A stretch of 23,393 nt of DNA from a virus: positions 1 through 23,393 of IMG/VR virus record IMGVR_UViG_3300009425_000101; one strand, given 5' to 3'. This document shows positions 558-23,393 of the stretch, piece after piece. Under the pieces are notes generated by a model. The model had not been told where the DNA came from and ran no database searches. It worked only from the letters and a program-made list of their open reading frames with translations. The first letter of the stretch is position 1. Each line of letters begins with the position of its first letter. The translations under genes and the position numbers were made by a program.

Positions 558-3500
558 TTAATAGCCTGTTATTTGAACGTTTATTGCCGTATTTGGTGCT
601 ACTACTCCTGAAATAGTATCTAGTGTGGTTATTATAGCTTGTGTTGTACTTGCCGACACTAATCTACATATGGAATTTGAGGTCAAAGCCTCAGGAGTAG
701 CAACTACTGAAGGTACTTGTGTGTATTTATCTTTGAAAGTTATTGTCACAAGCCCAGTTCCGTCAGTAGTTGCCCTATCTGTTTCAGTTGTACTTGGAAT
801 GTCATATTGCACTAAAAAACTATCAACAAACATGTCGTATGCAGGTGCTAAAGCTTCTAATGTTATTTTGTATTGAAAATATCTAGCCGAATATTGTCCA
901 GGTACCAATTCAGTATAATCTGTAAACGTTGTGTTATCTTGAGAGTTTCGCATAAATACTTTCATTGAACTGACTTCTGTTTTGCCCGTCCAATACCAAT
1001 CGTTCATATCTGTCCAATATAAATCGCCGATGTCTGTCCAATATATGCCGTTATCATTAAAAGTTTTAGAAGCTTCTGCTTTAACATACACATTTAAAAC
1101 TTCCCCTAAATCTTTCACTGGCGTTTCATAACTACCCAATAGTCCTATGGTGGGTGAAGATACCCACGGTGTAGTCAATGTGTTCCATTGCTGTGTGACT
1201 GTATTCCAAGTGTCGTAATTAAATGATTGTAACTCCAACCTATTGCCAGCAGAACTTGTAAAATCAAAACTTTCAGCATTGCTGAATATAAAAGGCACAG
1301 AGTCACTATAATTAAACGACTCTGTTTCTACTACAAAATTACTTAAAGTTCCCAATGGAAATCCATCTGACGCGTAATTATCAGCTACGCCCAAAGTATT
1401 TGTATTACCAGAAAATGCTAAAGCGCTAGTCGCTGTTGTTGATTCTATACCGGCAATTGAGATAGCTTTAATTAAAAACGTTCCGCCAGTGTTTAAAGTG
1501 TATGTATACGAATTGTTTAACGTTGTAAATATAGTTAGTGCCTCAGACCAAGTAGAGCCTTGCCGTATTTCATAATAAGCAATTAACCCGTATTCATCTA
1601 TAGGAACTTCTTTCCACGTAAATATTAGTGCAACGCCAGATCGATGAATAACAAATGTTTGAACTTGCGCTGGTATTACATCGCTAGTGCTAATTCTAAA
1701 TTTATTTTCTATAAATGTTGATTTTCTATTTAATAAATCCGACGATCTAACCCTTATATCATAAACCCCATCTGAATCAATAATTGCAATTGAATTATCA
1801 TCAGTGGTTTTCATTGCTGAAAATTCCGAACTATCGATACGATACTGGTATTCGTAATGTGTGGCTTGATTAACCTTACTCCAAGAAAATGAGGTATTAT
1901 TTAAAACCGATTTGCCATTTTTAAATAAAGTCCTATTTGAAACAAGCAAATTTGTAGGTGATTTTACATCGGGTAGCTTTTGATCAGGCGAGATGTCTAT
2001 CGGATTGTTGGTATATATTAAATCGTATTTTGAAGCATCGTACTTGTTGGCGGTTATATCATATTTGTTAGAATCATTTTCTTTTATATCAACAACTCTA
2101 TATAGCTCTCCTGCAGAATCGGTGCTATTTGATATACCGTATATTGCGTAAGGATTTGCTTTAAACCCCTTACTGTCCACCACAGTTATTGTGTTTATTG
2201 ATCCTATATTAGAAGGGTCAATTGTAAGTTTTTGAACTATACCATTCTGATCTAATATGCTTATAAAATAAGTTACACCCGCTAATAAAGTGACATCTCT
2301 ATCTAAAACTATAATAAGATCAGTCATAGATACTAGCCTACCACCAGATATTGAATTGGGCATATTATTATCGTATATCTCAATTACCTCACCTACATTT
2401 ATGCTAGAATGATCTAATCCAGCCGTGTATGTCACTGTTTCTGAGTTTAATACATCGCTTAATAGTTGATATTTACCTAATCTATGCGCCTGAGATCGAC
2501 TAGTACAGCCGAATGCGTATAACTCTTTTTTTACTTCCACGCCAACTTCATTTAAAAGCTTGTTGTTATATACTGTCTCAGTCGTTAAAGAATAATTATT
2601 TAATGGTTCATTATAAGATACAATTACTGTATTAGACTGTCTATCCAACTCTATAGATGAATAATTAAAGCCTTCCTCTAATACATTGGCGTTTGTAACT
2701 ATAGCTATTGCTTCGCTGGGGGAATCTTGAGTTAACTTTATTACTCCACCAAAATAATATAATACTGATAGGAAGTTATTTTGCATTTTTTTAAATATTG
2801 TAAGTGCTTGTTCTCTGTCAGTTATAGCGATATTAAACGTAAATCTTGGTTCCAAATTACCGCCTAAACCTGGAACTAAATCGTCGCAGTATTGAGCTAG
2901 CGTGTACAATTCGAACTTATCTATTTGCTCTACATCTATGCTGTCCCCTGCACCGTAACGTTTGTTAGTCATCAAATCCAACATGCACCAAACGGGATTA
3001 TTTGTGTACGCTGTTGTAAAAACACCATTCCAAATACCTATATATTTTCTAGTGAGAGGATTATAATTCTCAGGTATCTTTATCGCGTTTATACCTTTTA
3101 TGTGATAAGCCCTGTCTGGTAACTGTGTGCCGAATTGTGCAGCTTCAAACATTAAAGCCGCACCTGCTCTATTTGCATAGTTCATAGCGTAATCAATGAT
3201 ATTTGTGTATGATGCTATGTAAGTATCGTTTTGTAATTTTCCGGGGTTGGAACTATCGGCTGTTACACGGTCTATGACCATAGTTACTTCTTTTTCGTAC
3301 GGTAAAATATTGAATAAAAATGATTTTTCAATAGAACTAGTGGCAATACCAGAAATTGTCTTTTTGGCAATAACGTTACCGTTTATAGAAAACTGTAACG
3401 CGACTGATGTTCCGTTTACATTACCGTTGTTATCAATTGATGCCAATGAAGGTAGCCTTATTATAATATTCACTGACGTTATTTGATCATCTGCTATTGT

Positions 3501-3959
3501 TATAGTGTGTGGAATCGCCTTTTTTATTTGTGCATTAACACTGATAGTTGAACCACTTTTTTGAAACATCGGTGGGAAGCGTTGATCTTCAGTCCCAAGC
3601 ATCTGATATACTTGTACACCTTTAAAATTAAGATTGCCACCTTCATCTGCCAGTGGCGTTCCATTTAATAATATAGACCCTACCGGATTTGCAATATTTA
3701 CTGGGCCTTCAATTGGCCCTTCCGATATTATATCAATAAACTTGGCATAAGTGTCAGTGTGCATTACATCGCCGTTTATGTGACCACCAGGAGAACCTCC
3801 TCCCCCTCCTCCTTTACCTAACAACCCTCTCAATAACTGCGGTTGTGCCCCTTCTTCTATGCTATCTTCAACTTTTACTTTATATTGCACATTCCCTTGA
3901 GACTGTGGTTGTAATTGATTACCTGCAGGGAGTTTGGTTTGTATTTGATTCTTACTCAT
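558..3959 (-). CDS. J: Tip attachment protein J-like (central tail hub / receptor binding)
   Basis: At 1133 residues it nearly equals lambda gpJ (1132). A Gly-rich linker (about residues 49-59) is followed by the family signature DTYAKFIDIISEGPIEG (about 69-85), typical of the start of the gpJ hub. The middle holds the hub domains. About residues 650-860 contain two fibronectin-III-like stretches (SFSWSKVNQATHYEYQYR and ALIFTWKEVPIDEYGL). The C-terminal third is beta-rich and should hold the receptor-binding region; it includes three closely spaced YWT motifs (about 973-992). The ATG overlaps the stop of the I-like gene as ATGA, so the two are translationally coupled. Known role of the family: it forms the tail tip, engages the outer-membrane receptor and closes the tube. 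The host receptor cannot be deduced. Confidence 0.95.
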   Translation of the reverse strand: MSKNQIQTKLPAGNQLQPQSQGNVQYKVKVEDSIEEGAQPQLLRGLLGKGGGGGGSPGGHINGDVMHTDTYAKFIDIISEGPIEGPVNIANPVGSILLNGTPLADEGGNLNFKGVQVYQMLGTEDQRFPPMFQKSGSTISVNAQIKKAIPHTITIADDQITSVNIIIRLPSLASIDNNGNVNGTSVALQFSINGNVIAKKTISGIATSSIEKSFLFNILPYEKEVTMVIDRVTADSSNPGKLQNDTYIASYTNIIDYAMNYANRAGAALMFEAAQFGTQLPDRAYHIKGINAIKIPENYNPLTRKYIGIWNGVFTTAYTNNPVWCMLDLMTNKRYGAGDSIDVEQIDKFELYTLAQYCDDLVPGLGGNLEPRFTFNIAITDREQALTIFKKMQNNFLSVLYYFGGVIKLTQDSPSEAIAIVTNANVLEEGFNYSSIELDRQSNTVIVSYNEPLNNYSLTTETVYNNKLLNEVGVEVKKELYAFGCTSRSQAHRLGKYQLLSDVLNSETVTYTAGLDHSSINVGEVIEIYDNNMPNSISGGRLVSMTDLIIVLDRDVTLLAGVTYFISILDQNGIVQKLTIDPSNIGSINTITVVDSKGFKANPYAIYGISNSTDSAGELYRVVDIKENDSNKYDITANKYDASKYDLIYTNNPIDISPDQKLPDVKSPTNLLVSNRTLFKNGKSVLNNTSFSWSKVNQATHYEYQYRIDSSEFSAMKTTDDNSIAIIDSDGVYDIRVRSSDLLNRKSTFIENKFRISTSDVIPAQVQTFVIHRSGVALIFTWKEVPIDEYGLIAYYEIRQGSTWSEALTIFTTLNNSYTYTLNTGGTFLIKAISIAGIESTTATSALAFSGNTNTLGVADNYASDGFPLGTLSNFVVETESFNYSDSVPFIFSNAESFDFTSSAGNRLELQSFNYDTWNTVTQQWNTLTTPWVSSPTIGLLGSYETPVKDLGEVLNVYVKAEASKTFNDNGIYWTDIGDLYWTDMNDWYWTGKTEVSSMKVFMRNSQDNTTFTDYTELVPGQYSARYFQYKITLEALAPAYDMFVDSFLVQYDIPSTTETDRATTDGTGLVTITFKDKYTQVPSVVATPEALTSNSICRLVSASTTQAIITTLDTISGVVAPNTAINVQITGY

Positions 3960-5243: not shown

Positions 5244-5272
5244 AAATTTACTTATTATAATATTATATTACC

Positions 5273-5281
5273 ATTATAACA
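5273..5281 (-). promoter_or_regulatory. Possible extended -10 box upstream of K-I-J
   Basis: On the minus strand this reads TGTTATAAT, an extended -10 match 30 bases upstream of the K-like ATG. No convincing -35 is present and the surroundings are very AT-rich, so a chance match is likely. Confidence 0.2.
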
Positions 5282-5286
5282 TACTT

Positions 5287-5417
5287 TTAACTTATTTTTA
5301 AGTTCTTCAATTTCGATTCTATATTTTCTTGCCACACTTTCTTTTTTTTAACCCTATGCTTAATTCTAACCATAGTTCCATTTTTGCCAATTGTTTTTCT
5401 ATTTCATACTTTGTCAT
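5287..5417 (-). CDS. Possible small coiled-coil protein, interrupted at an A8 run
   Basis: ATG 5417 opens a 32-codon frame ending at 5319, beginning MTKYEIEKQLAKMELWLEL. It is Lys/Glu-rich and likely helical. After the codons TTA AAA AAA a -1 shift would extend it to TAA at 5287, giving 43 residues that stay helical (VWQENIESKLKNLKIS). The eight-A run contains A AAA AAA in the correct phase for -1 slippage, but a homopolymer length error would look the same. An AGGAT lies about 13 bases upstream, which is a weak ribosome site. It sits in the 248-base gap between L and K, where lambda has no gene. No family was recognised and it may not be translated. Confidence 0.35.
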
Positions 5418-5491
5418 TTATTTTTTTATAATCCTATTTAGTTGTTATGTTTTTAAAATATGCGGTTTATGATGTAAACTATTTACTTTAT

Positions 5492-6568: not shown

Positions 6569-8689
6569 TTAACCTCTATGCAATAAACCGCCCACACGCG
6601 ATTCTTTTATTAATTTTTCGGTTATTTTCGCATTTACTAACTTAGATATGTCAGTGGCTTGCTCACTTTGACTCTTAGCGTTATTTGAAGAACCAGACCC
6701 GCCATTGTCACTTGTTATGTTTGTATTAACTACCATCTGCACTGGCACATTTGATCGGTTGAATGAGGAACTTAAGGGTATAGCTGCGTCATTTGCAGCC
6801 TGTAACGATAATCCTCTTGTTCCAGATAACAAATTTCCGCCAGCACTACTTGCGACTGCGCCACTAGCAGAACTTGCAACAGAACCACCCACAGAGCCAA
6901 AAAGCCCACTAAATAAACTGCCTAAACCTTTTATTGCGTTTAAAGCTTCTGCTTCTATGCCCATTCTTATCATGTCAGATATTATTGAAGAAGCCATCTG
7001 TTTAAACGCCTGACTCGCAGTTAAAGTTCCTGTGACAAGTCCAGACATGCTATCAGCGAAACTAGACGCTAAATCATTAGATAAATTGTTTAATGATTTA
7101 TATAAATTTATCATGCTTTTATCTTTTGCTATTGTATTTAAAGACTTTTGCGAAGCTTCAACTTTATTTCCATTACTGGCAGCGGTATTCATTTCTGCAG
7201 CTGCCATAGCTATGTCATCTTTTAATTTTTGATAGGATGAACCTAAATTAATAATATCAGTATTTGAATCAGATATTTCCGAAGAAGTTCTAATGAACTC
7301 TTTTATTTGTTGATTAGCTTCGTTAATGCCAGCCAGTTTAAAAGTTTGTCCAGACGTTAATGAAGCATCACTTTTAATTTTTTGCATCATAGGGCTAATA
7401 CCTAACAATTGCTGTCGAACAGTTTCTAACTGTTTAAGATAAGTCACATAATTATTAGATGTTTCAGCCACTGTTTCTTTCTGACCTTTCATCACAGATA
7501 ATGATTTTTTAGACGTATCAGCAATTGCCAATGCTGATACTGCAACCCTGTTTAACTCAGAGTCCAGCTGCTTATTTATGCTTATTTCTTTTGTTGTGTT
7601 TTCAACTGCCTGTACTGTACTATCTATCTTGCCTTTATTAGAAATAGATTTGAAAACATCAGAATCAGTCCCCAATAATGGTTCTGTTTTTTTCAATGTA
7701 CCATCACCTAAACCGAATTGAGTGTTATTTGCTCTATCAGCTATATGCAAAAAACTCTGCAACTCTTTTTTTGCAGGGATTATTCCAGAAACAAACTTGG
7801 AAAAATCCATTTCCCTAATGGACTCTGAAAAATTCTTTACTGTTTGTTCTCCACTTTTTAAACTTTTAAATAACCCACTTATACCATCCATAACCCCTGT
7901 TAAACTGTCTGCAAAGCTATTAACTCCTGTGCTTTCTTGCAGTAAAGAATCCATAGACCCAACTAACTTATCAAAAGAGTTACTTAATCTAACAACCCCT
8001 TGGGCGTTTGTTCTTTGCATACTACTTTGCATGTTATCTAATTCAGGTGCTATGTCTAACAAGGCCTCAAAAAATTGCCTACTGGATATTTTACCCTCAA
8101 GCATTTGTGCCCGCATCGTTTCAGTTCCACCTGAAGCATCAAGAAAAAACTTTTTAAGTTTACTACCCAATGCTGGGAAATCTGTAATCACTGAATTGTA
8201 CTCTTGAGCTTGCAAAGTACCCTTTTCAAATACTTGCCCCAACTGTATTATTCCTCCCCTGGCTTGTTGTGCGGTGGTTCCAGATTGAGATATACCTTCA
8301 GTTATAGCTTGAGTCACAGCCAATAAGTCTTTTTGTGAAGCGCCAAGTTCACCCATATTCAAAGCTAATGCTCTATAAGTATCAGAAGTACCTTCCAAAC
8401 TTGTGCTAGTTCTTTGTGCTATTGCAAATAACTTATCTTGCACATCTATTAAATTTGTACCTGCTTCACTAGAAGCTTTAATTGTGTTGGCATATGTTGT
8501 CCATCCATCAGCTGCTTTAAGTATCTCTACAGTACCCAAACCTATGCCTAAAAACCCAAGACTTGATTTTAATAAACCTAACGAATTAGAGGCGACTTTG
8601 CTCTTATCGCCCATATCTTTTATTTGTTTACTAGTATTACTCGCACCTTTAGTCTGCAAATCTATAAAAACGCTGTAGCTAGTTGCCAT
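6569..8689 (-). CDS. Tail tape measure protein
   Basis: The protein has 706 residues and is Ser-, Ala- and Gly-rich with long helical stretches. Residues about 60-240 carry the tape-measure N-terminal domain, including ANTIKASSEAG, LFAIAQRTSTSLEGTSDTYRAL, ITEGISQSGTTAQQARGG and LGQVFEKGTLQAQEYNSV. The C-terminal 130 residues include the Gly/Ala-rich segment (LGSLFSGLFGSVGGSVASS) and a GGLLHRG end typical of lambda H-like proteins. It is shorter than lambda gpH (853), so at the usual 0.15 nm per residue the tail would be roughly 105 nm (inference). The ATG at 8689 overlaps the preceding gene by 11 bases. Confidence 0.95.
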   Translation of the reverse strand: MATSYSVFIDLQTKGASNTSKQIKDMGDKSKVASNSLGLLKSSLGFLGIGLGTVEILKAADGWTTYANTIKASSEAGTNLIDVQDKLFAIAQRTSTSLEGTSDTYRALALNMGELGASQKDLLAVTQAITEGISQSGTTAQQARGGIIQLGQVFEKGTLQAQEYNSVITDFPALGSKLKKFFLDASGGTETMRAQMLEGKISSRQFFEALLDIAPELDNMQSSMQRTNAQGVVRLSNSFDKLVGSMDSLLQESTGVNSFADSLTGVMDGISGLFKSLKSGEQTVKNFSESIREMDFSKFVSGIIPAKKELQSFLHIADRANNTQFGLGDGTLKKTEPLLGTDSDVFKSISNKGKIDSTVQAVENTTKEISINKQLDSELNRVAVSALAIADTSKKSLSVMKGQKETVAETSNNYVTYLKQLETVRQQLLGISPMMQKIKSDASLTSGQTFKLAGINEANQQIKEFIRTSSEISDSNTDIINLGSSYQKLKDDIAMAAAEMNTAASNGNKVEASQKSLNTIAKDKSMINLYKSLNNLSNDLASSFADSMSGLVTGTLTASQAFKQMASSIISDMIRMGIEAEALNAIKGLGSLFSGLFGSVGGSVASSASGAVASSAGGNLLSGTRGLSLQAANDAAIPLSSSFNRSNVPVQMVVNTNITSDNGGSGSSNNAKSQSEQATDISKLVNAKITEKLIKESRVGGLLHRG

Positions 8690-9101
8690 TTTCTAAATCC
8701 TCTTTTTTAAAATCAAACTTAGTATGGGCTAATGCTATTTTGTACACGCCGATAGGCGCTTGCTTAGAGCCACCATTTTCTAAATTTTCTGAATAGTCTA
8801 AATTATTTTGTATAAAAATACGGTTATCTCTTGTAGATTTATAAGACTTGACCTTATTTGTAGCTAAGTTTATAACCTCTCCTGGACCTTTAACCTGTGA
8901 CTCATCATTAGACTTTTGATTTATAGATACATGATGATTCGACCGGTATAGAGTTGTGTCTATTGGAGACAAGTCTGTGATTGATGCCACATTTTCTACA
9001 ACATAATTTTTTACTGATTTATCAAAAGCTTTTATGATATTTAATGATAGTTTGTCCATCGCATTTGGAAGCTGTGAAATAGATATATTTATGTTAGGCA
9101 T
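8679..9101 (-). CDS. HK97 gp10-like tail completion / neck protein
   Basis: This 140-residue protein has the C-terminal signature of HK97-gp10 family proteins: NLDYSENLENGGSKQAPIG followed by VYKIALAHTKF. Upstream is the common SPIDTTLYRSNHHVSI segment. Family members usually sit at the neck or tail completion ring and are encoded beside the head-tail connector and tail terminator genes. Here the gene lies between the tail assembly chaperones and the tape measure, a displaced location. Its ATG overlaps the end of the chaperone -1 frame by eight bases, and its own end overlaps the tape measure start, so it is embedded in the operon. The family call is good; a role in tail completion is inferred. 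Confidence 0.8.
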   Translation of the reverse strand: MPNINISISQLPNAMDKLSLNIIKAFDKSVKNYVVENVASITDLSPIDTTLYRSNHHVSINQKSNDESQVKGPGEVINLATNKVKSYKSTRDNRIFIQNNLDYSENLENGGSKQAPIGVYKIALAHTKFDFKKEDLENGN

Positions 9102-9459
9102 GGGTGTTGCCTGTAGTTACCACGGCTCTTGCTTTTTGTTCTGATAAATATTTATCGTATACAAGTTCAAGTTTTCGGATACAATTTAAATATATATTGA
9201 ACTCGTCCATATCTTTTAAGCCTTGAATTTGAAAATATATATAAATATCATTATATGTTATTCTACCACTATATGATATTGCAGGATATAATTCATAAAA
9301 AGCTTTTATTATAAAATCAATAAAACTTTTATCAACTAGTTCTAAAGTGTGTAAGTTAATTTCTGCTTGTACGCCTTTAGCTTTCAAATGGTTTTTTATT
9401 ATCGTATCTCTTTCTTTATACAATTTGCTTTCAAATTCAGTTGATACAAGCTCTATTAC
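9094..9459 (-). CDS. Tail assembly chaperone, -1 frameshift extension (gpT-like)
   Basis: This frame is entered by -1 slippage at 9459-9465 and adds 121 residues to the 135-residue chaperone, giving a fusion of about 256 residues. The extension starts VIELVSTEFESKLYKERD and ends at TAA 9094. The frame is open without interruption from the slip site. Read alone, the only candidate start near the beginning is TTG at 9423 (109 codons), with no good ribosome site, so independent translation is unlikely. In lambda the analogous gpG-T product, made by the same kind of slip, recruits tail tube subunits to the tape measure. The extension itself has little sequence conservation; the call rests on position and the slip site. 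Confidence 0.82.
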   Translation of the reverse strand, partial: VIELVSTEFESKLYKERDTIIKNHLKAKGVQAEINLHTLELVDKSFIDFIIKAFYELYPAISYSGRITYNDIYIYFQIQGLKDMDEFNIYLNCIRKLELVYDKYLSEQKARAVVTTGNTHA

Positions 9460-9863
9460 TTTTTTTCAAAATCCTCAGAAAAGTTATTTGTATTTTGACA
9501 AACAGCATACAATTCATGCACAAGGTCTGGCAATTTAGTAAGTAACTCTTTTGCTTTATGCTTTGTGAATGTTATTTGTTTGCTATTGTCATCAACTAAC
9601 CCAGACCATCCTATTAACAATGACTCTACCATTACATCCAAATTTATGTTTTTAGTAGCGTTAAATAATTGCTCTTGATTTGCATCATCATCAATAATAG
9701 CGGTAACCTGGTGTTTCATTGACGATCTAGCTAAACATAAAACAAATTCTTTATTTGCTCTACCAGCATATTTTAATGTAAAAGTTACCCCATGCACCAT
9801 GTATTTGAAAGTTTTATCTCCCGAATCTGAGTCCATGTAAAATTTTGATAAGTTTGTTTGCAT
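9456..9863 (-). CDS. Tail assembly chaperone, short form (gpG-like)
   Basis: This 135-residue protein is encoded between tail tube and tape measure, the fixed position of the tail assembly chaperone. It carries a small beta-rich start (YMVHGVTFTLKYAGRANKEF) and a helical C-terminus ending NNFSEDFEKK. The stop follows directly on the slippery heptamer, so most ribosomes should finish here and a minority continue into the -1 frame. A Shine-Dalgarno-like AGAGGT lies nine bases upstream of ATG 9863. In lambda the unshifted gpG coats the tape measure during tail assembly and is absent from virions. Confidence 0.82.
   Translation of the reverse strand: MQTNLSKFYMDSDSGDKTFKYMVHGVTFTLKYAGRANKEFVLCLARSSMKHQVTAIIDDDANQEQLFNATKNINLDVMVESLLIGWSGLVDDNSKQITFTKHKAKELLTKLPDLVHELYAVCQNTNNFSEDFEKK
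9459..9465 (-). promoter_or_regulatory. Programmed -1 ribosomal frameshift site A AAA AAG
   Basis: The minus strand reads GAA AAA AAG TAA in the chaperone frame, so the heptamer A AAA AAG is in the X XXY YYZ phase and is followed at once by the zero-frame stop. After slipping, the next codon is GTA and the frame is open for 121 codons. A AAA AAG is one of the strongest -1 slip sequences in bacteria (as in dnaX). I see only a weak GCTT...AAGC pairing downstream, so any stimulatory structure is uncertain. Confidence 0.88.
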
Positions 9864-18452: not shown

Positions 18453-18782
18453 TTACTCGTTATCTTTTTGTGCTGATGGGATTTCAGTTTTTCCTAACTC
18501 GTCATCTATTTCCATTAGCTCTTCTTCATATGATAACTCAGTTACTCCTAACTCAGCAGCTCTTCCATGAATAGATTTTTTAGAAACAATGCCTGTCATA
18601 TTTAAAGTTGATGCTTTAACTAGGTCATCTATATCACCAATTTTAGCACTGAACTCACTAAACCCTTCGAACTTAACTTTATCTACATTTCCACCTAGCA
18701 TGTTTTCAGTATCTTTTATTATAAGTTGATATTGAGACGAAGTTTCTACAACAGAAGACTTTAGACTAATATCGGCCGTCAA
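18453..18782 (-). CDS. Portal protein, C-terminal part (out of frame with the N-terminal part)
   Basis: The only available start is TTG 18782 (109 codons), but the frame is open further upstream and reads LKQRQLTADISLKSS from 18797. Joined to the last residues of the upstream ORF this gives SGEALKQRQLTADIS, which is the conserved C-terminal helix of DUF4055 portals. This part is therefore the portal wing and C-terminus. The remaining residues (AKIGDIDDLVKAST, AAELGVTELSYEEELMEI) match the acidic end of that family. A joined reading is 447 residues, close to the family norm; 333 alone is too short. Independent translation from TTG has no well-spaced ribosome site. Confidence 0.75.
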   Translation of the reverse strand: MTADISLKSSVVETSSQYQLIIKDTENMLGGNVDKVKFEGFSEFSAKIGDIDDLVKASTLNMTGIVSKKSIHGRAAELGVTELSYEEELMEIDDELGKTEIPSAQKDNE

Positions 18783-18793
18783 TTGTCTTTGCT

Positions 18794-19795
18794 TTAAGCC
18801 TCTCCTGATTGAGGTTGTGTGCCAGCTTCGAATAATTTTCCAGCGTATGCCTGGGCTACTTCTATGTCTCTTTCTATTCTATTTTCTAGAGCTTCAACTC
18901 CTGAAACCATTTCAGCAAAATATACTTTGGCATTTTGACTTTGTAACGCAATAAAGTTAGTTGCACCTAATGCTATGTTTTCTGATTCACTTTGGTTTAT
19001 ACCAGTCATTATCAGTGTTGGGTCGCCTTTAGTGACCAAAGCTTTTTGTAAAATAGCGTAGTTCCTATATATATGGCGGCATAGTTCGGCTATAGGGGCA
19101 AGAGGCGAGTTGCGGATTACGTCATTAAGTTTATATGGCGATAATATATAAAATGGCATTTTATCAAAAGCTTTACCGTTATACTTAGGGGTTATTATTT
19201 CACCTAAATTCCCCTCATGGTCTCTTACCTGTTGAGTGTAAATACCTTCATCAAACCTTAATACTAACTCAAATTGTTTCGCTTCAAATGTAGAACTTTC
19301 TTCATTAAATATTCTTTTGGTATGTTCTATTACAGCGTAATCAACATTACCATTATGATCATAATTCCAATCTATAATATCTTCTGCTTTGTATAGTTTA
19401 TGAGATAGGCCTAACTCACTGCCATCCACTTCTATTAATAGACCTACCCTACCTATAGATAAATTCTCCCTTAGTACATTTACATATAAGTTTCCAAGAT
19501 ATTCTTCATTGCTTTTTAGTTTATCCAACTCTATTAGGTTATCTCCGCCTGTTGCTAAACCAATCATAGCCCTTAGACCTTGATTGGTTAAATCTGGAAA
19601 AGTCGTTAGCATTAAAAAGTTTTGATAATAAGTTCGGTATTGACTAGATCCTTTTTCCACGTTAGCAGGGTATGGTAAATACAACTCACCTTTAGATTTT
19701 ATAAAGGTGTTTCCTCTCAAAGCATCTCGGATAAAATCCCATTCTTTTCTATATATAGAATAGTCAATATCTACTTTTCTAGAATAATCTGACAT
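18794..19795 (-). CDS. Portal protein, N-terminal part (DUF4055 family), apparently frameshifted
   Basis: This 333-residue product covers most of a DUF4055-type portal: EWDFIRDALRGNTFIKSKGELYLPYP near the N-terminus, then RTYYQNFLMLTTFPDLTNQGL, YKAEDIIDWNYD, and PLAPIAELCRHIYRNYAILQKAL in the second half. It stops at TAA 18794 directly after GEA, within a conserved helix, and the missing C-terminus continues in the -1 frame. The portal forms the dodecameric ring for DNA entry. No strong ribosome site precedes ATG 19795, but the reading begins like the family and no closer start fits. The gene starts the second leftward operon, downstream of a possible promoter at 19841-19849. Confidence 0.85.
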   Translation of the reverse strand: MSDYSRKVDIDYSIYRKEWDFIRDALRGNTFIKSKGELYLPYPANVEKGSSQYRTYYQNFLMLTTFPDLTNQGLRAMIGLATGGDNLIELDKLKSNEEYLGNLYVNVLRENLSIGRVGLLIEVDGSELGLSHKLYKAEDIIDWNYDHNGNVDYAVIEHTKRIFNEESSTFEAKQFELVLRFDEGIYTQQVRDHEGNLGEIITPKYNGKAFDKMPFYILSPYKLNDVIRNSPLAPIAELCRHIYRNYAILQKALVTKGDPTLIMTGINQSESENIALGATNFIALQSQNAKVYFAEMVSGVEALENRIERDIEVAQAYAGKLFEAGTQPQSGEA

Positions 19796-19837
19796 ATGCG
19801 AATCTCAAATTGAAAACGTTACTATTTATAATAAACT

Positions 19838-19850
19838 AATACTATATCAC
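19838..19850 (-). promoter_or_regulatory. Candidate leftward promoter for the portal operon
   Basis: The minus strand reads GTGATATAGTATT, containing TGATATAGT, an extended -10 match 46 bases before the portal ATG. It matches the motif before terL at 12 of 13 positions. The -35 is not clear. Confidence 0.4.
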
Positions 19851-20525
19851 ATTTCGTGACTTTTTGTATACTTTTAAAATTCGAATATGTTTATTTTATT
19901 AATTATTTTTATTATAACTTTATTATTGCATAATCTATGAATGGTTACAAACTGTACAATAATTTGATGATTTTAAGCAAGATTAACCACTATACATTTA
20001 ATTGAACTTTAAAGCACACCAGTAAGATTTTAGTATAGCTGTGAGGTGTTTTACCATTTAATTAGTTTAAACTCAAGGAAGGTACTTTAAAATGCGAATA
20101 AAATAGAAATATCAATCAATTTAAAAGTTATATAGTTTTCATTGGCTTTTTGCTACTTTGGCTTTTGTTGTAAAATTCAAGTCAAAAGTCTATTGAAATT
20201 TTAATTTAAAACTGATCGATTTTAGTTTTTTATTTCTCAATTCCCATTTCAGTAAAACTCAAAATAGCCAAAATGTAAAAATGATGGGTTTGATGGGTAC
20301 GTACGTATAGAGCGTAAAATTACTATAACTTTCTTAACTAAAATATAAATATAATTTTATATTACTATATTTATTAACATTTTAACATTTAGTTCTGTAC
20401 TCTATACACCGTATACGTTTCGGAGATGTTGACCTCAAAACATTCACAAACATATAGGCCAATATGCTAAAAAAGGTAACAAATAATAAAAGTAACCAAG
20501 ATGTACCTTATTAATATTATTAACC

Positions 20526-20651
20526 AAAGTGTAATTTACTTTTTTTTACACTTTTCGTATGAGGGCTATGTTAGCCTCATGTAAGAAGATGTTTACGGTT
20601 TTAACTTGGATATGAGGGTGTGTTATCTTACAAAATCACAAGTAAATCTTC
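20526..20651. repeat. Cluster of nested inverted repeats, candidate structured RNA or regulatory site
   Basis: Three elements are visible. AAAGTGTAA (20526-20534) and TTACACTTT (20546-20554) form a perfect 9-bp hairpin with an 11-base loop. ATGAGGGCTA (20559-20568), TGT, TAGCCTCAT (20572-20580) form a hairpin with a bulged G. GAAGATGTTTAC (20585-20596) pairs with GTAAATCTTC (20642-20651), with one bulge. GTAAGA (20581-20586) can instead pair with TCTTAC (20626-20631), so the last two pairings compete. TATGAGGG recurs about 50 bases later. This is seen in sequence; function is unknown. Confidence 0.5.
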
Positions 20652-20821
20652 GTGTTTTAACTCTATATTTACACCTTTATTCTGAGATATATTTTTATGA
20701 TTATGCGTGACAATATTAAAATCAAAGCTAAAGTAAAACCAATTTAGAAACTTGCAAAATATGATTTTAAATTAAAACTATAAAATAATAATATTGCAAT
20801 AATAATTACATTATTAGATCA

Positions 20822-20852
20822 AAAACAAACTTTATAAAAAGTATTTACTTTA
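20822..20852 (+). repeat. Copy 1 of a 31-bp element shared with 23323-23353
   Basis: It matches the second copy at 30 of 31 positions; the last 26 bases are identical. It contains the AAGTA-TT-TACTT inverted repeat, which overlaps the -35 of the downstream promoter and could be an operator. Confidence 0.85.
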
Positions 20853-20871
20853 ATTTGTAAGTGTGTATAAT
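20844..20871 (+). promoter_or_regulatory. Rightward promoter of the small inverted operon
   Basis: TTTACT (20844-20849), a 16-base spacer and a perfect TATAAT (20866-20871) form a good sigma-70-type promoter. It points at the operon starting at 21003, with a leader of about 125 bases. The same hexamers and the same 16-base spacing recur at 23345-23372. The palindrome over the -35 suggests repressor control. Confidence 0.75.
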
Positions 20872-21002
20872 GGGTATTATCAATTTCACTATGAAAATGC
20901 AAAAGATGCTTTACTATCAGCATTGGAATTTTACATCGAAAGACATGTTATAATTCTAATATCTATAGTTAGATACTTTCAAATTAGTAGGGATTTATAT
21001 CA

Positions 21003-21194
21003 ATGGGAAAACTAACAAAAGAAGAAACTGAATACTTTTTATATATCACAGATAGATGTAGAGCAGCAAACTTACTTTGCGATTGCTTTAGCAGTTACCA
21101 AAGGGTATCTAAATTTACGCCTACAATGGCTAGGGAGAATAAATGCGAAGCAGTTATAAACTATAGTATACGAAAGAAATATAAGCCGTTATGA
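21003..21194 (+). CDS. Small unknown protein, first gene of the inverted operon
   Basis: This 63-residue protein is one of few genes on the plus strand. It begins MGKLTKEETEYFLYITDRCR and has four cysteines (C19, C26, C28, C48), with CDC close together. The C-terminus is basic (RKKYKPL). No family was recognised; a small zinc-binding or regulatory protein is possible but unproven. AGGGA lies nine bases upstream of the ATG. Its TGA overlaps the next ATG as ATGA (21191-21194). The promoter at 20844-20871 lies upstream in the same direction. Being inverted within the late operon suggests an accessory (moron-like) gene. Confidence 0.6.
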   Translation: MGKLTKEETEYFLYITDRCRAANLLCDCFSSYQRVSKFTPTMARENKCEAVINYSIRKKYKPL

Positions 21195-21289
21195 ACGGTC
21201 TAATATGTTCTAGGAATATTACTAACGAACAACAGCTAAAGTTTAATGATATTTTTTTAAACTTTTTAGAAATATTAGATGAATTATAA
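21191..21289 (+). CDS. 32-residue unknown protein, coupled to its neighbours
   Basis: A short frame begins at the ATGA overlap with the preceding gene and ends TAA at 21289. It starts MNGLICSRNITNEQQ and ends with a hydrophobic/acidic helix (FNDIFLNFLEILDEL). No family was recognised. Evidence for a gene is the four-base overlap upstream and a closely spaced next gene; its shortness keeps confidence low. It could be a coupling ORF for the third gene. Confidence 0.45.
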   Translation: MNGLICSRNITNEQQLKFNDIFLNFLEILDEL

Positions 21290-21300
21290 GGAATTAAACA

Positions 21301-21645
21301 ATGAAAACTAAACCACTAAAAGAATATATGGAAAGTAGATTTTCTAAGGAAGAAATAGATGAAATAAAACAGAAATCTAAAAAGCAGTTTGAAAAAATGC
21401 AATCTATCAGAGAAGAACAATATAGCTATATACTTGACTTGATGCAAGATATGGGGAAAGGTATTAATGTTATTATAAAAACTATAGAAACTGAAGACGA
21501 ATACGAATTAATGGCTGTGAGATTGGATGTTGTATTAGATATTGAAATAAAAAATCCTAGCTGCGAACTAAGCATAATAAAACTATGCTTAGCTAATCTA
21601 ATATCGGACTATGACAAGAATCATATTGAACCTTTGTTTAAATAG
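21301..21645 (+). CDS. Small protein with antitoxin-like sequence features, no clear HTH
   Basis: The 114-residue protein has an AAGGA ribosome site eight bases from its ATG. Residues 1-38 (KPLKEYMESRFSKEEIDEIK) resemble the helical start of Xre-type antitoxins. Residues about 57-112 (IKTIETEDEYELMAVRLDVV, then LCLANLISDYDKNHIEPL) resemble the N-terminal segment of HigA antitoxins ('I.TE.dY..al..ie.l', 'LatLveaYe..H.pi'). A degenerate HTH over residues 38-92 (MGKGINVIIKTIE) is an alternative alignment. No toxin partner is visible. The function is a weak inference; it may be a small regulator of the cassette or of the host. Confidence 0.6.
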   Translation: MKTKPLKEYMESRFSKEEIDEIKQKSKKQFEKMQSIREEQYSYILDLMQDMGKGINVIIKTIETEDEYELMAVRLDVVLDIEIKNPSCELSIIKLCLANLISDYDKNHIEPLFK

Positions 21646-21680
21646 TAAAAAAAATATTAAGTGTAATACGCTTTATCAGT

Positions 21681-21752
21681 TTATGTATTGCCAATAGCCA
21701 TGTGTTGTTTCTTATCTTATAATAAGAGCGGTAGCTATATGGCAATGCGTAA
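21681..21752. repeat. Large inverted repeat between convergent operons, possible bidirectional terminator
   Basis: TTATGTATTGCCAATAGC (21681-21698) is the near inverse of GCTATATGGCAATGCGTAA (21734-21752), with two T/C differences and one extra base. Inside is a second hairpin, TCTTAT (21710-21715) with ATAAGA (21722-21727). It lies exactly where the rightward small operon and the leftward terL meet. No T-run abuts it on either strand; on the minus strand an eight-T run lies about 30 bases further on. Termination is inferred from position. Confidence 0.45.
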
Positions 21753-21764
21753 GCTAATATGCTA

Positions 21765-23054
21765 CTAGCGATAATGATAACCGCTAATAACCCTTGTACC
21801 ATCATCTAACCCATGCCAAATTAAATACCTAACTGCATCTAGGACATGATCTATGCCTGAACTTTTGTCAGGTTCACCTTTATCTGTATAAGTCTGTTGT
21901 TCAATAGCGCTTATAGTTTTATGACAGTTTTTAGTTATTCTTATTTTTCCAGTTTCAGATTTAAACTCTAAATTTATCTTATTTACCGTGTCACTAATAA
22001 ACGGGTTACCTGACTCATCATACAATACGCCCCTAAATCCTGCATCCATCAACAAATCTATATTAGAAGTTCTTGACCCTGTATACCTATTACGGCCAGA
22101 AGCATCAGGGTATATCCTAGCGTATCTAAGTTCACCTATTCTATTCCTAATTTCTTGTATCAAAGCAAAAGTATCATAGGCATCAACTATTTCATCAAAT
22201 ATTATAAGGTTGCCATCATCGTCTTTAACGGCTAAAACACAAGCCATGTGCTGGATATTAAAGTCACACCCTATATAGATCATGGTATTAGGTTCTATAG
22301 TTATGGGTTCTATGACGTGTTTATCTCTATTAAAATACTTATATACTGACCCGGACTGCATATTAACAAACTCGCCATCGATATACGCTTTTTTCATTTC
22401 AGGAGTAAGGTGATCTAGCTTTTTAACAAAATCATCTACGTCGATACTTAGATTAGAATGTATAGACGCTTTTATTAACTTACGCTCTGGGTATTTGTTG
22501 CCAATAACTGTTTTGTCAAAGTGCTTGTACAAGAACTTAAAGCCTTCAGGCGTACTAGAAAATGCCACACGGCACATATCCTTAAAGTATTTTACATCCT
22601 TATTGGCTATTCTCAATCTTCCTGGTATTTGATTAAAGGCCTCAGTAGTAACCTTTTCGGCTATGCGGTCGCATTCGTCTATATGAATTGATACGTTATT
22701 AGCTGCTGTTATTTTAGATGCATCAGTTAAAGAACCAAAGCGAATAGACCCAAAGCCGTCTATGGTTAATACTTTTGGATTTCCTATAAATGTGCAATTC
22801 CTACCTGTCTCTAATCCATAGCTTGGCAGTATCTCAAACAAAGTGGGGTAAGCAGCTGATTCTAAAAGCGAATGACTGGGTTCTAAAAATACAACACTAT
22901 ATTTTGATAAAGGGACTCTTAACCTGTTTTGTATAGCTAAATGTAAATTGCCAAAAGTTTTACCTGACCCCCAACCACCCGCAAAGGCTGTTATTAGATG
23001 GGTGCTTGTAACAAAGTCTAATTGTGGCTTACTAAATAATAGTTCTGTTTGCAT
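21765..23054 (-). CDS. terL: Terminase large subunit
   Basis: The 429-residue protein has both terminase domains. The ATPase has Walker A GGWGSGKT (residues 26-33) and Walker B VSIHIDEC with D126 and E127; FSSTPEG (about 165-171) is the coupling motif region. The RNase H-like nuclease has D264 (IGCDFN), D317 (YPDASG) and D402/D406 (DHVLDAVRY). It packages DNA into the prohead through the portal. ATG 23054 has no clear ribosome site, and the frame upstream runs only through the 12-bp repeats to a stop, without another start codon. Unusually, no small terminase gene is seen upstream, and the gene is separated from portal by an inverted cassette. Confidence 0.96.
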   Translation of the reverse strand: MQTELLFSKPQLDFVTSTHLITAFAGGWGSGKTFGNLHLAIQNRLRVPLSKYSVVFLEPSHSLLESAAYPTLFEILPSYGLETGRNCTFIGNPKVLTIDGFGSIRFGSLTDASKITAANNVSIHIDECDRIAEKVTTEAFNQIPGRLRIANKDVKYFKDMCRVAFSSTPEGFKFLYKHFDKTVIGNKYPERKLIKASIHSNLSIDVDDFVKKLDHLTPEMKKAYIDGEFVNMQSGSVYKYFNRDKHVIEPITIEPNTMIYIGCDFNIQHMACVLAVKDDDGNLIIFDEIVDAYDTFALIQEIRNRIGELRYARIYPDASGRNRYTGSRTSNIDLLMDAGFRGVLYDESGNPFISDTVNKINLEFKSETGKIRITKNCHKTISAIEQQTYTDKGEPDKSSGIDHVLDAVRYLIWHGLDDGTRVISGYHYR

Positions 23055-23067
23055 ATTGGTTCTTGTG

Positions 23068-23124
23068 TCTCTATTTGCGTCTCTATTTGCGCCTCTATTT
23101 GCGATTCTATTTGCGATTCTATTT
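23068..23124. repeat. 12-bp tandem repeat just upstream of terL
   Basis: Almost five units of 12 bp: TCTCTATTTGCG twice, CCTCTATTTGCG, ATTCTATTTGCG, and a partial ATTCTATTT. The core TCTATTTGCG is kept in four units. The array ends 14 bases before the terL start. In one minus-strand frame it would encode IE(S/A/T)Q repeats but there is no start codon. It may be a packaging (pac/cos) recognition site or simple slippage. Confidence 0.85.
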
Positions 23125-23127
23125 CAA

Positions 23128-23256
23128 TTATGAACTGGCCTTTTGAGCTATGTTATAAAAATCAAAGCAACACGCCTTAGAATCTTCTAATTCATTAAAG
23201 TCTATTATATAACCCACATTAAATTTAGTTATGATAGCATCCAATTTGTATTTCAT
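23128..23256 (-). CDS. 42-residue unknown leader protein upstream of terL
   Basis: ATG 23256 opens a 42-codon frame ending TAA 23128: MKYKLDAIITKFNVGYIIDF, then ELEDSKACCFDFYNIAQKASS. The composition is protein-like. No ribosome site is clear. It lies between the extended -10 box at 23290-23298 and the tandem repeat, in the leftward operon. It is too short and unlike a small terminase subunit. No family was recognised. Confidence 0.4.
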   Translation of the reverse strand: MKYKLDAIITKFNVGYIIDFNELEDSKACCFDFYNIAQKASS

Positions 23257-23286
23257 TTATAGTTAGCACTCTATGACGTATCTACA

Positions 23287-23299
23287 AATATTATATCAC
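23287..23299 (-). promoter_or_regulatory. Leftward promoter of the terL operon
   Basis: The minus strand reads GTGATATAATATT, with a perfect TATAAT (23290-23295) preceded by TGA, an extended -10. It matches the motif upstream of portal at 12 of 13 positions. A good -35 is lacking, as is common for extended -10 promoters or those needing a late activator. Confidence 0.5.
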
Positions 23300-23322
23300 T
23301 ATATGCAAATTTAATATAATGT

Positions 23323-23353
23323 AAAATAAACTTTATAAAAAGTATTTACTTTA
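23323..23353 (+). repeat. Copy 2 of the 31-bp element shared with 20822-20852
   Basis: It differs from copy 1 at one base. It lies near the right edge, ahead of a rightward promoter that should serve a gene outside the window. Confidence 0.85.
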
Positions 23354-23372
23354 TTTTATAATAAGGTATAAT
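23345..23372 (+). promoter_or_regulatory. Rightward promoter at the right edge
   Basis: TTTACT (23345-23350), 16 bases, TATAAT (23367-23372), identical in layout to the promoter at 20844-20871. It is divergent to the terL promoter. Its gene starts beyond the window. Confidence 0.7.
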
Positions 23373-23393
23373 AGATATATCAACTAAATAACA

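Follow-up and report, generated by a model that had tools for sequence, protein, structure and literature searches.

A putative early-regulon cassette encoding a HigA-like protein lies between the terL and portal genes of a phage contig

Phage morons, as found in lambdoid and similar phages, are accessory genes that lie between conserved late genes, carry a promoter and a terminator-like hairpin of their own, and are absent in relatives. In archaeal viruses, small anti-defence proteins are encoded behind a repeated early regulatory sequence, and the genes associated with this sequence include functional antitoxin mimics and truncated homologues of host antitoxins, amongst them the Phd-like antitoxin ADG.17 and the truncated ADG.51 (PMC11065993). 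Antitoxin mimics are also made by bacterial phages, such as Dmd of T4 and AdfB of ICP1. The latter acts against DarTG (PMC11481870). HigA proteins like those of E. coli and Shigella (PDB 5ifg, 5ycl) dimerise through the N-terminal helices a1-a4 and touch the toxin with helices a3-a6, and have their HTH at the C-terminus (PMC7340258). A HigA-like protein is furthermore a component of the PD-lambda-2 defence system.

The locus described here has, or is proposed to have, features in common with these systems. It lies in a 23.4-kb virus contig (the window, i.e., the whole stretch of 23,393 nucleotides that was analysed), in which the late genes for tail, capsid, scaffold, head morphogenesis, portal and terL all run leftward. 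Gene coordinates and profile matches confirmed the proposal of a first-pass annotation that terL and portal, both leftward, are parted by positions 19796-21764. This gap of 1,969 bp holds a promoter, a terminal hairpin and the set of three rightward ORFs (63, 32 and 114 aa) that had been reported between the two genes, and which we located at 21003-21645 and designated c1, c2 and c3. The features of the locus are:

18794-19795, minus strand: portal, N-terminal part; left flank (phrog_145, E 7.6e-40)
19796-20821, no strand assigned: AT-rich non-coding stretch from the portal start to the cassette promoter, folding like shuffles
20822-20877, plus strand: early-type promoter with the palindrome AAAGTATTTACTTT (20838-20851) over the -35; 84% identical to 23323-23378
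21003-21194, plus strand: c1, 63 aa, predicted all-helical (low confidence); orphan
21191-21289, plus strand: c2, 32 aa, start overlapping the c1 stop (ATGA); orphan and weakest gene call
21301-21645, plus strand: c3, 114 aa, long N-terminal helix and C-terminal HigA-N-like domain (aa 53-114); no HTH
about 21674-21764, no strand assigned: large hairpin, flanked by the 3' ends of c3 and terL, which converge here
21765-23054, minus strand: terL; right flank (profile matches to Terminase_6C, E 6e-9, and phrog_10250, E 6e-34)
23323-23378, plus strand: second early-type promoter copy, divergent from terL and reading off the right window end

The window terL was 62-65% identical to the terL of five related contigs (L003-L007), and the portal 46% identical to that of L004-L007. 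In these relatives the portal gene directly follows terL, at a distance of 62 bp in L003 and of 1 bp in L004-L007; the latter are one species (99.96-100% identical), so that together with L003 they amount to two close independent comparisons. The two genes are also adjacent in the more distant L008, and in G007 the ORFs in the corresponding positions (7034-8281 and 8278-9576) overlap, their roles being assigned from gene order, as the terL of this phage is of another family and without profile identification. None of the relatives checked (L003, L004-L007, L008 and G007) carried c1-c3, and the three genes are accordingly not core genes at this place. Because terL and portal are adjacent in every relative checked, 19796-21764 is an insertion, i.e., an accessory cassette inserted against the late-gene direction, exactly between terL and portal. 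Its GC content is lower. Flanking repeats of the kind left by a transposon or a target-site duplication were looked for at the insert ends; none was found, and such an origin was therefore rejected. No relatives of c1 or c3 were detected in viral contigs, phages or plasmids at the thresholds used, and bacterial genomes, searched with c3 alone, yielded only a weak match to a Legionella HigA.

The cassette promoter is sigma70-like (TTTACT-16-TATAAT at 20844-20871, with the -35 at 20844-20849 and the -10 at 20866-20871). By consensus alone such promoters occurred at chance level (19 found versus 16 expected). The two promoter copies in the window have the above identity over 56 nt, the 25 nt around the palindrome being the same in both, and in each the 14-bp inverted repeat AAAGTATTTACTTT covers the -35 box. 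This 14-mer occurs twice in the window (0.0025 expected) and eight times in G007 (0.01 expected), a 49.8-kb phage whose replication genes are homologous to those of G005, the late genes of which are in turn homologous to those of the window. Given its identity to the second promoter and to the eight G007 sites, the cassette promoter is well beyond chance, and its presence, as noted in the first-pass annotation, is confirmed. In G007 the late strand has no exact copy: each of the eight stands in front of early ORFs on the early strand, and a P22_Cro-like gene follows one of them. The slightly shorter core TATTTACTT was found at 10 early-strand sites in G007, including one upstream of primase at which TATAAT has nearly the same place as in the window, and ahead of early genes at three intergenic early-strand sites in G005, where a downstream sequence, AGTTAAAC, is common to the sites. 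Counted by TATTTACTT or AAAGTATTTACTTT, the element on the early-gene strand thus has two sites in the window, 8-10 in G007 and, as the core, three in G005.

The early region of the window's own phage lies off the contig; in the direction in which the 23323-23378 copy reads, relatives have primase and other early genes. We conclude that the cassette promoter probably belongs to an early-promoter family of this phage group and is not autonomous. As the element is common to the early-strand sites of G007 and G005, the cassette appears to be wired into the early regulon, and is probably a unit of that regulon lying within the late operon. Early timing of the cassette itself is inferred from the layout of one other phage.

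The element was also sought outside the group. In bacterial genomes, the promoter motif gave five scattered matches in unrelated taxa, about chance level, and was discarded as an indicator of the host. Additional 20-mer matches in viral contigs were traced to one protein-coding sequence in unrelated phages, and a scan of viral contigs for the 14-mer together with a -10 box was near chance level among the matches listed. Amongst the latter, L087, L090/L153 and L094/L152 have two to three copies of AAAGTATTTACTTT followed by TATAAT and no detectable protein similarity to this phage group; judging from these repeats, the same type of promoter/operator may recur in other phages.

Upstream of the genes, the leader consists of about 1.03 kb of AT-rich DNA (18-29% GC) without a recognisable gene. 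It had been described as structured, and this was not borne out. In 150-nt windows over 19780-20930, folding of the plus strand was near the expectation from composition (z +1.8 to -1.6), the lowest value on the minus strand was z -2.7, and an Rfam search of the leader returned no matches; a structured RNA in this stretch was thus rejected. The large inverted repeat noted after the three genes is, by contrast with shuffled sequence, real: the hairpin beside the terL end folds more strongly than shuffles on both the plus (z -3.4) and minus (z -4.9) strands. On the minus strand the hairpin is followed by a T-run at about 21647-21654, and the two together are possibly a terminator of the terL transcript. 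A canonical plus-strand terminator for the cassette was not present at the hairpin.

Codon usage compared with shuffles supported c3 as a gene (z 4.4), with modest values for c1 (2.3) and c2 (2.5). Neither c1 nor c2 had a match in Pfam or PHROGs, so that the earlier statement that the three proteins belong to no recognised family stands for these two, and is softened for c3, the C-terminal half of which is HigA-like. Residues 53-114 of c3 align to the HigA N-terminal domain, so that HigA as in E. coli and Shigella and the HigA-like part of PD-lambda-2 B are the known proteins to compare it with. The one sequence match was the HigA of Legionella adelaidensis (39% over 62 aa), which sits in a plasmid-borne HigBA pair. 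A profile built from about 25 HigA proteins scored 19.0 bits on the whole of c3, with aa 57-110 as the best region, compared with a maximum of 12.3 among 5,000 shuffles of c3, and c3 was the only clear match to this profile among the ORFs of three phages; the HigA match has a database E-value of only 0.03. No HigA-family match for c3 was obtained in Pfam, NCBIfam, PADLOC or PHROGs. Marginal matches in Pfam, PADLOC and PHROGs, to Prim-pol 4, Arcadin, PDC-S54 and spanin, fell below Pfam cut-offs, fitted mostly the charged helix and were rejected. The single-sequence AlphaFold models were poor (pLDDT 66-68), and fold searches with them were empty and uninformative. Taken together, the C-terminal domain of c3 weakly but consistently resembles the dimerisation and toxin-contact domain of HigA. 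Unlike HigA, c3 has a different N-terminal helix, no adjacent HigB and no C-terminal Cro/C1-type HTH: Pfam matched no HTH in c3, which ends where one would begin.

Our best explanation, which we hold with moderate confidence, is an inserted early-regulon cassette; for its function, the likeliest reading is that c3 is an antitoxin-like early protein, which we hold with low confidence. The cassette would be transcribed rightward from the early-class promoter (TATTTACTT core, with the AAAGTATTTACTTT palindrome over the -35), so that its products would appear at the same early stage of infection as those of the replication genes, and the adjoining hairpin at the terL end would keep it apart from late transcription. 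A Cro-like repressor might control the cassette by binding the palindrome; we guess this from the palindrome itself and from the Cro-like gene of G007. Since its domain matches the dimerising and toxin-contact part of HigA and lacks the DNA-binding part, c3 could bind either HigA or HigB where the host has a HigBA-type (PD-lambda-2-like) module, and so keep the module from aborting the infection, with c1 and c2 as co-expressed host-interaction proteins. The mode proposed for c3, a phage-made substitute or decoy antitoxin, would be that of T4 Dmd and ICP1 AdfB.

A parallel in layout exists with the early anti-defence genes of archaeal viruses, with which the cassette has in common small proteins encoded behind a repeated early regulatory sequence and, as in ADG.17 and ADG.51, an antitoxin-like or truncated antitoxin-like domain. 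It differs from these in belonging to a bacterial phage, in that c3 is HigA-like and not Phd-like, in its late-operon location, and in that its anti-defence function is a proposal. An early antitoxin-like or decoy role, directed against a toxin or a defence system, is the likeliest single function of c3, tentative as the assignment is. With c3, the locus offers a candidate, open to experiment, for a phage product acting against HigBA-type defences, and with the repeated early promoter/operator element a sequence handle on genes for host interaction in a phage group of which little is known; in the boldest reading, the early-promoter element of these phages could locate further anti-defence genes. 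That all of this holds at once, i.e., an early-regulon anti-defence cassette in the packaging operon, an HTH-less HigA-domain decoy and an element that finds anti-defence genes, we regard as rather doubtful.

The alternative that survives best is an internal rearrangement, in which duplication or relocation of one of the phage's own early operons brought its genes here with their promoter, and the genes have general early roles without a toxin link. The near identity of the cassette promoter to 23323-23378 fits such an event, as does the abundance of small orphan genes among the early genes of phages of this kind, whereas nothing in the early region of either G005 or G007 corresponds to c1-c3. 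We consider it possible, at clearly less than an even chance, and it does not conflict with our best explanation on promoter and timing.

The first-pass annotation had read the locus as a moron. An accessory insertion with a promoter against the late genes was confirmed, and the resemblance to morons extends to the inverted orientation and the lower GC. Independent expression, for instance in lysogeny, is less likely than early expression. The cassette differs from known morons in its promoter, which is of the phage's early class, and in its site, between terL and portal on the opposite strand. For the cassette to be expressed from a prophage and to change the lysogen (by superinfection exclusion or in fitness), it would have to use a promoter class that serves early lytic genes in G007 and G005, and a repressor acting at the palindrome, if this is its operator, would keep the cassette off in a lysogen. 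No integrase was seen among 20 early-region proteins of G005 and G007, which included polymerase, helicase, primase, DUF2800 and base-modification enzymes, nor were other lysogeny genes seen in this survey of part of the ORFs of the two relatives. A prophage moron is less likely for want of an integrase in this survey, and an early cassette likelier because the promoter belongs to the early-promoter family; overall, we judge expression from a prophage improbable. An insert that faces against its late operon thus need not be a lysogeny moron, as promoter class tells timing.

A phage-borne toxin-antitoxin or addiction module, with c1 or c2 as toxin and c3 as antitoxin, would account for the order of a small protein first and a HigA-like protein second, as in HigBA, and for their close spacing. 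It is nonetheless quite improbable: similarity to HigB was sought in c1 and c2 and none was found, so that c1, predicted all-helical, was rejected as a HigB; c3 is without the HTH needed for autoregulation; and the promoter is the early one of the phage and not specific to a module. Finally, an assembly artefact that joined unrelated pieces at terL/portal, as might be suspected of a metagenomic contig with a two-frame portal (possibly a sequence error) and junctions without a second copy, is very unlikely, in that the insert is bounded on either side by a gene end that is intact, and the specific promoter element within it recurs beyond terL on this contig.

Several minor observations were made in the window and its relatives. 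The portal gene (18453-19795, minus strand) is split into two frames of 333 and then 109 aa, both of which match parts of phrog_145, and is a single ORF of 440-462 aa in relatives; sequencing error, mutation or frameshifting may be responsible. In relatives a small terminase gene stands immediately before terL; it is missing at this place in the window, where 23055-23322 instead contains a 42-aa ORF along with a 12-bp tandem repeat (23063-23112). The idea that c1-c3 represent this terminase in a new position was rejected, since they showed no similarity to it. Two tail genes that adjoin each other in G005 are separated in the window by a further non-coding gap rich in AT (5244-5491; 248 bp, about 25% GC), at the edge of which the early palindrome occurs with one mismatch (5476-5489). 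On the early strand of G007 (L018-L020), which has 8 to 10 near-identical promoter copies and the P22 Cro-like gene, possible thymine hypermodification genes were found, i.e., an HMUDK-like kinase domain, a thymidylate-synthase-like enzyme and a TAGT-like glycosyltransferase. In G005 (L021), an early protein encoded at 2812-3510 on the minus strand joins a DUF3310 domain to DUF285 repeats, which are of a Mycoplasma-type family.
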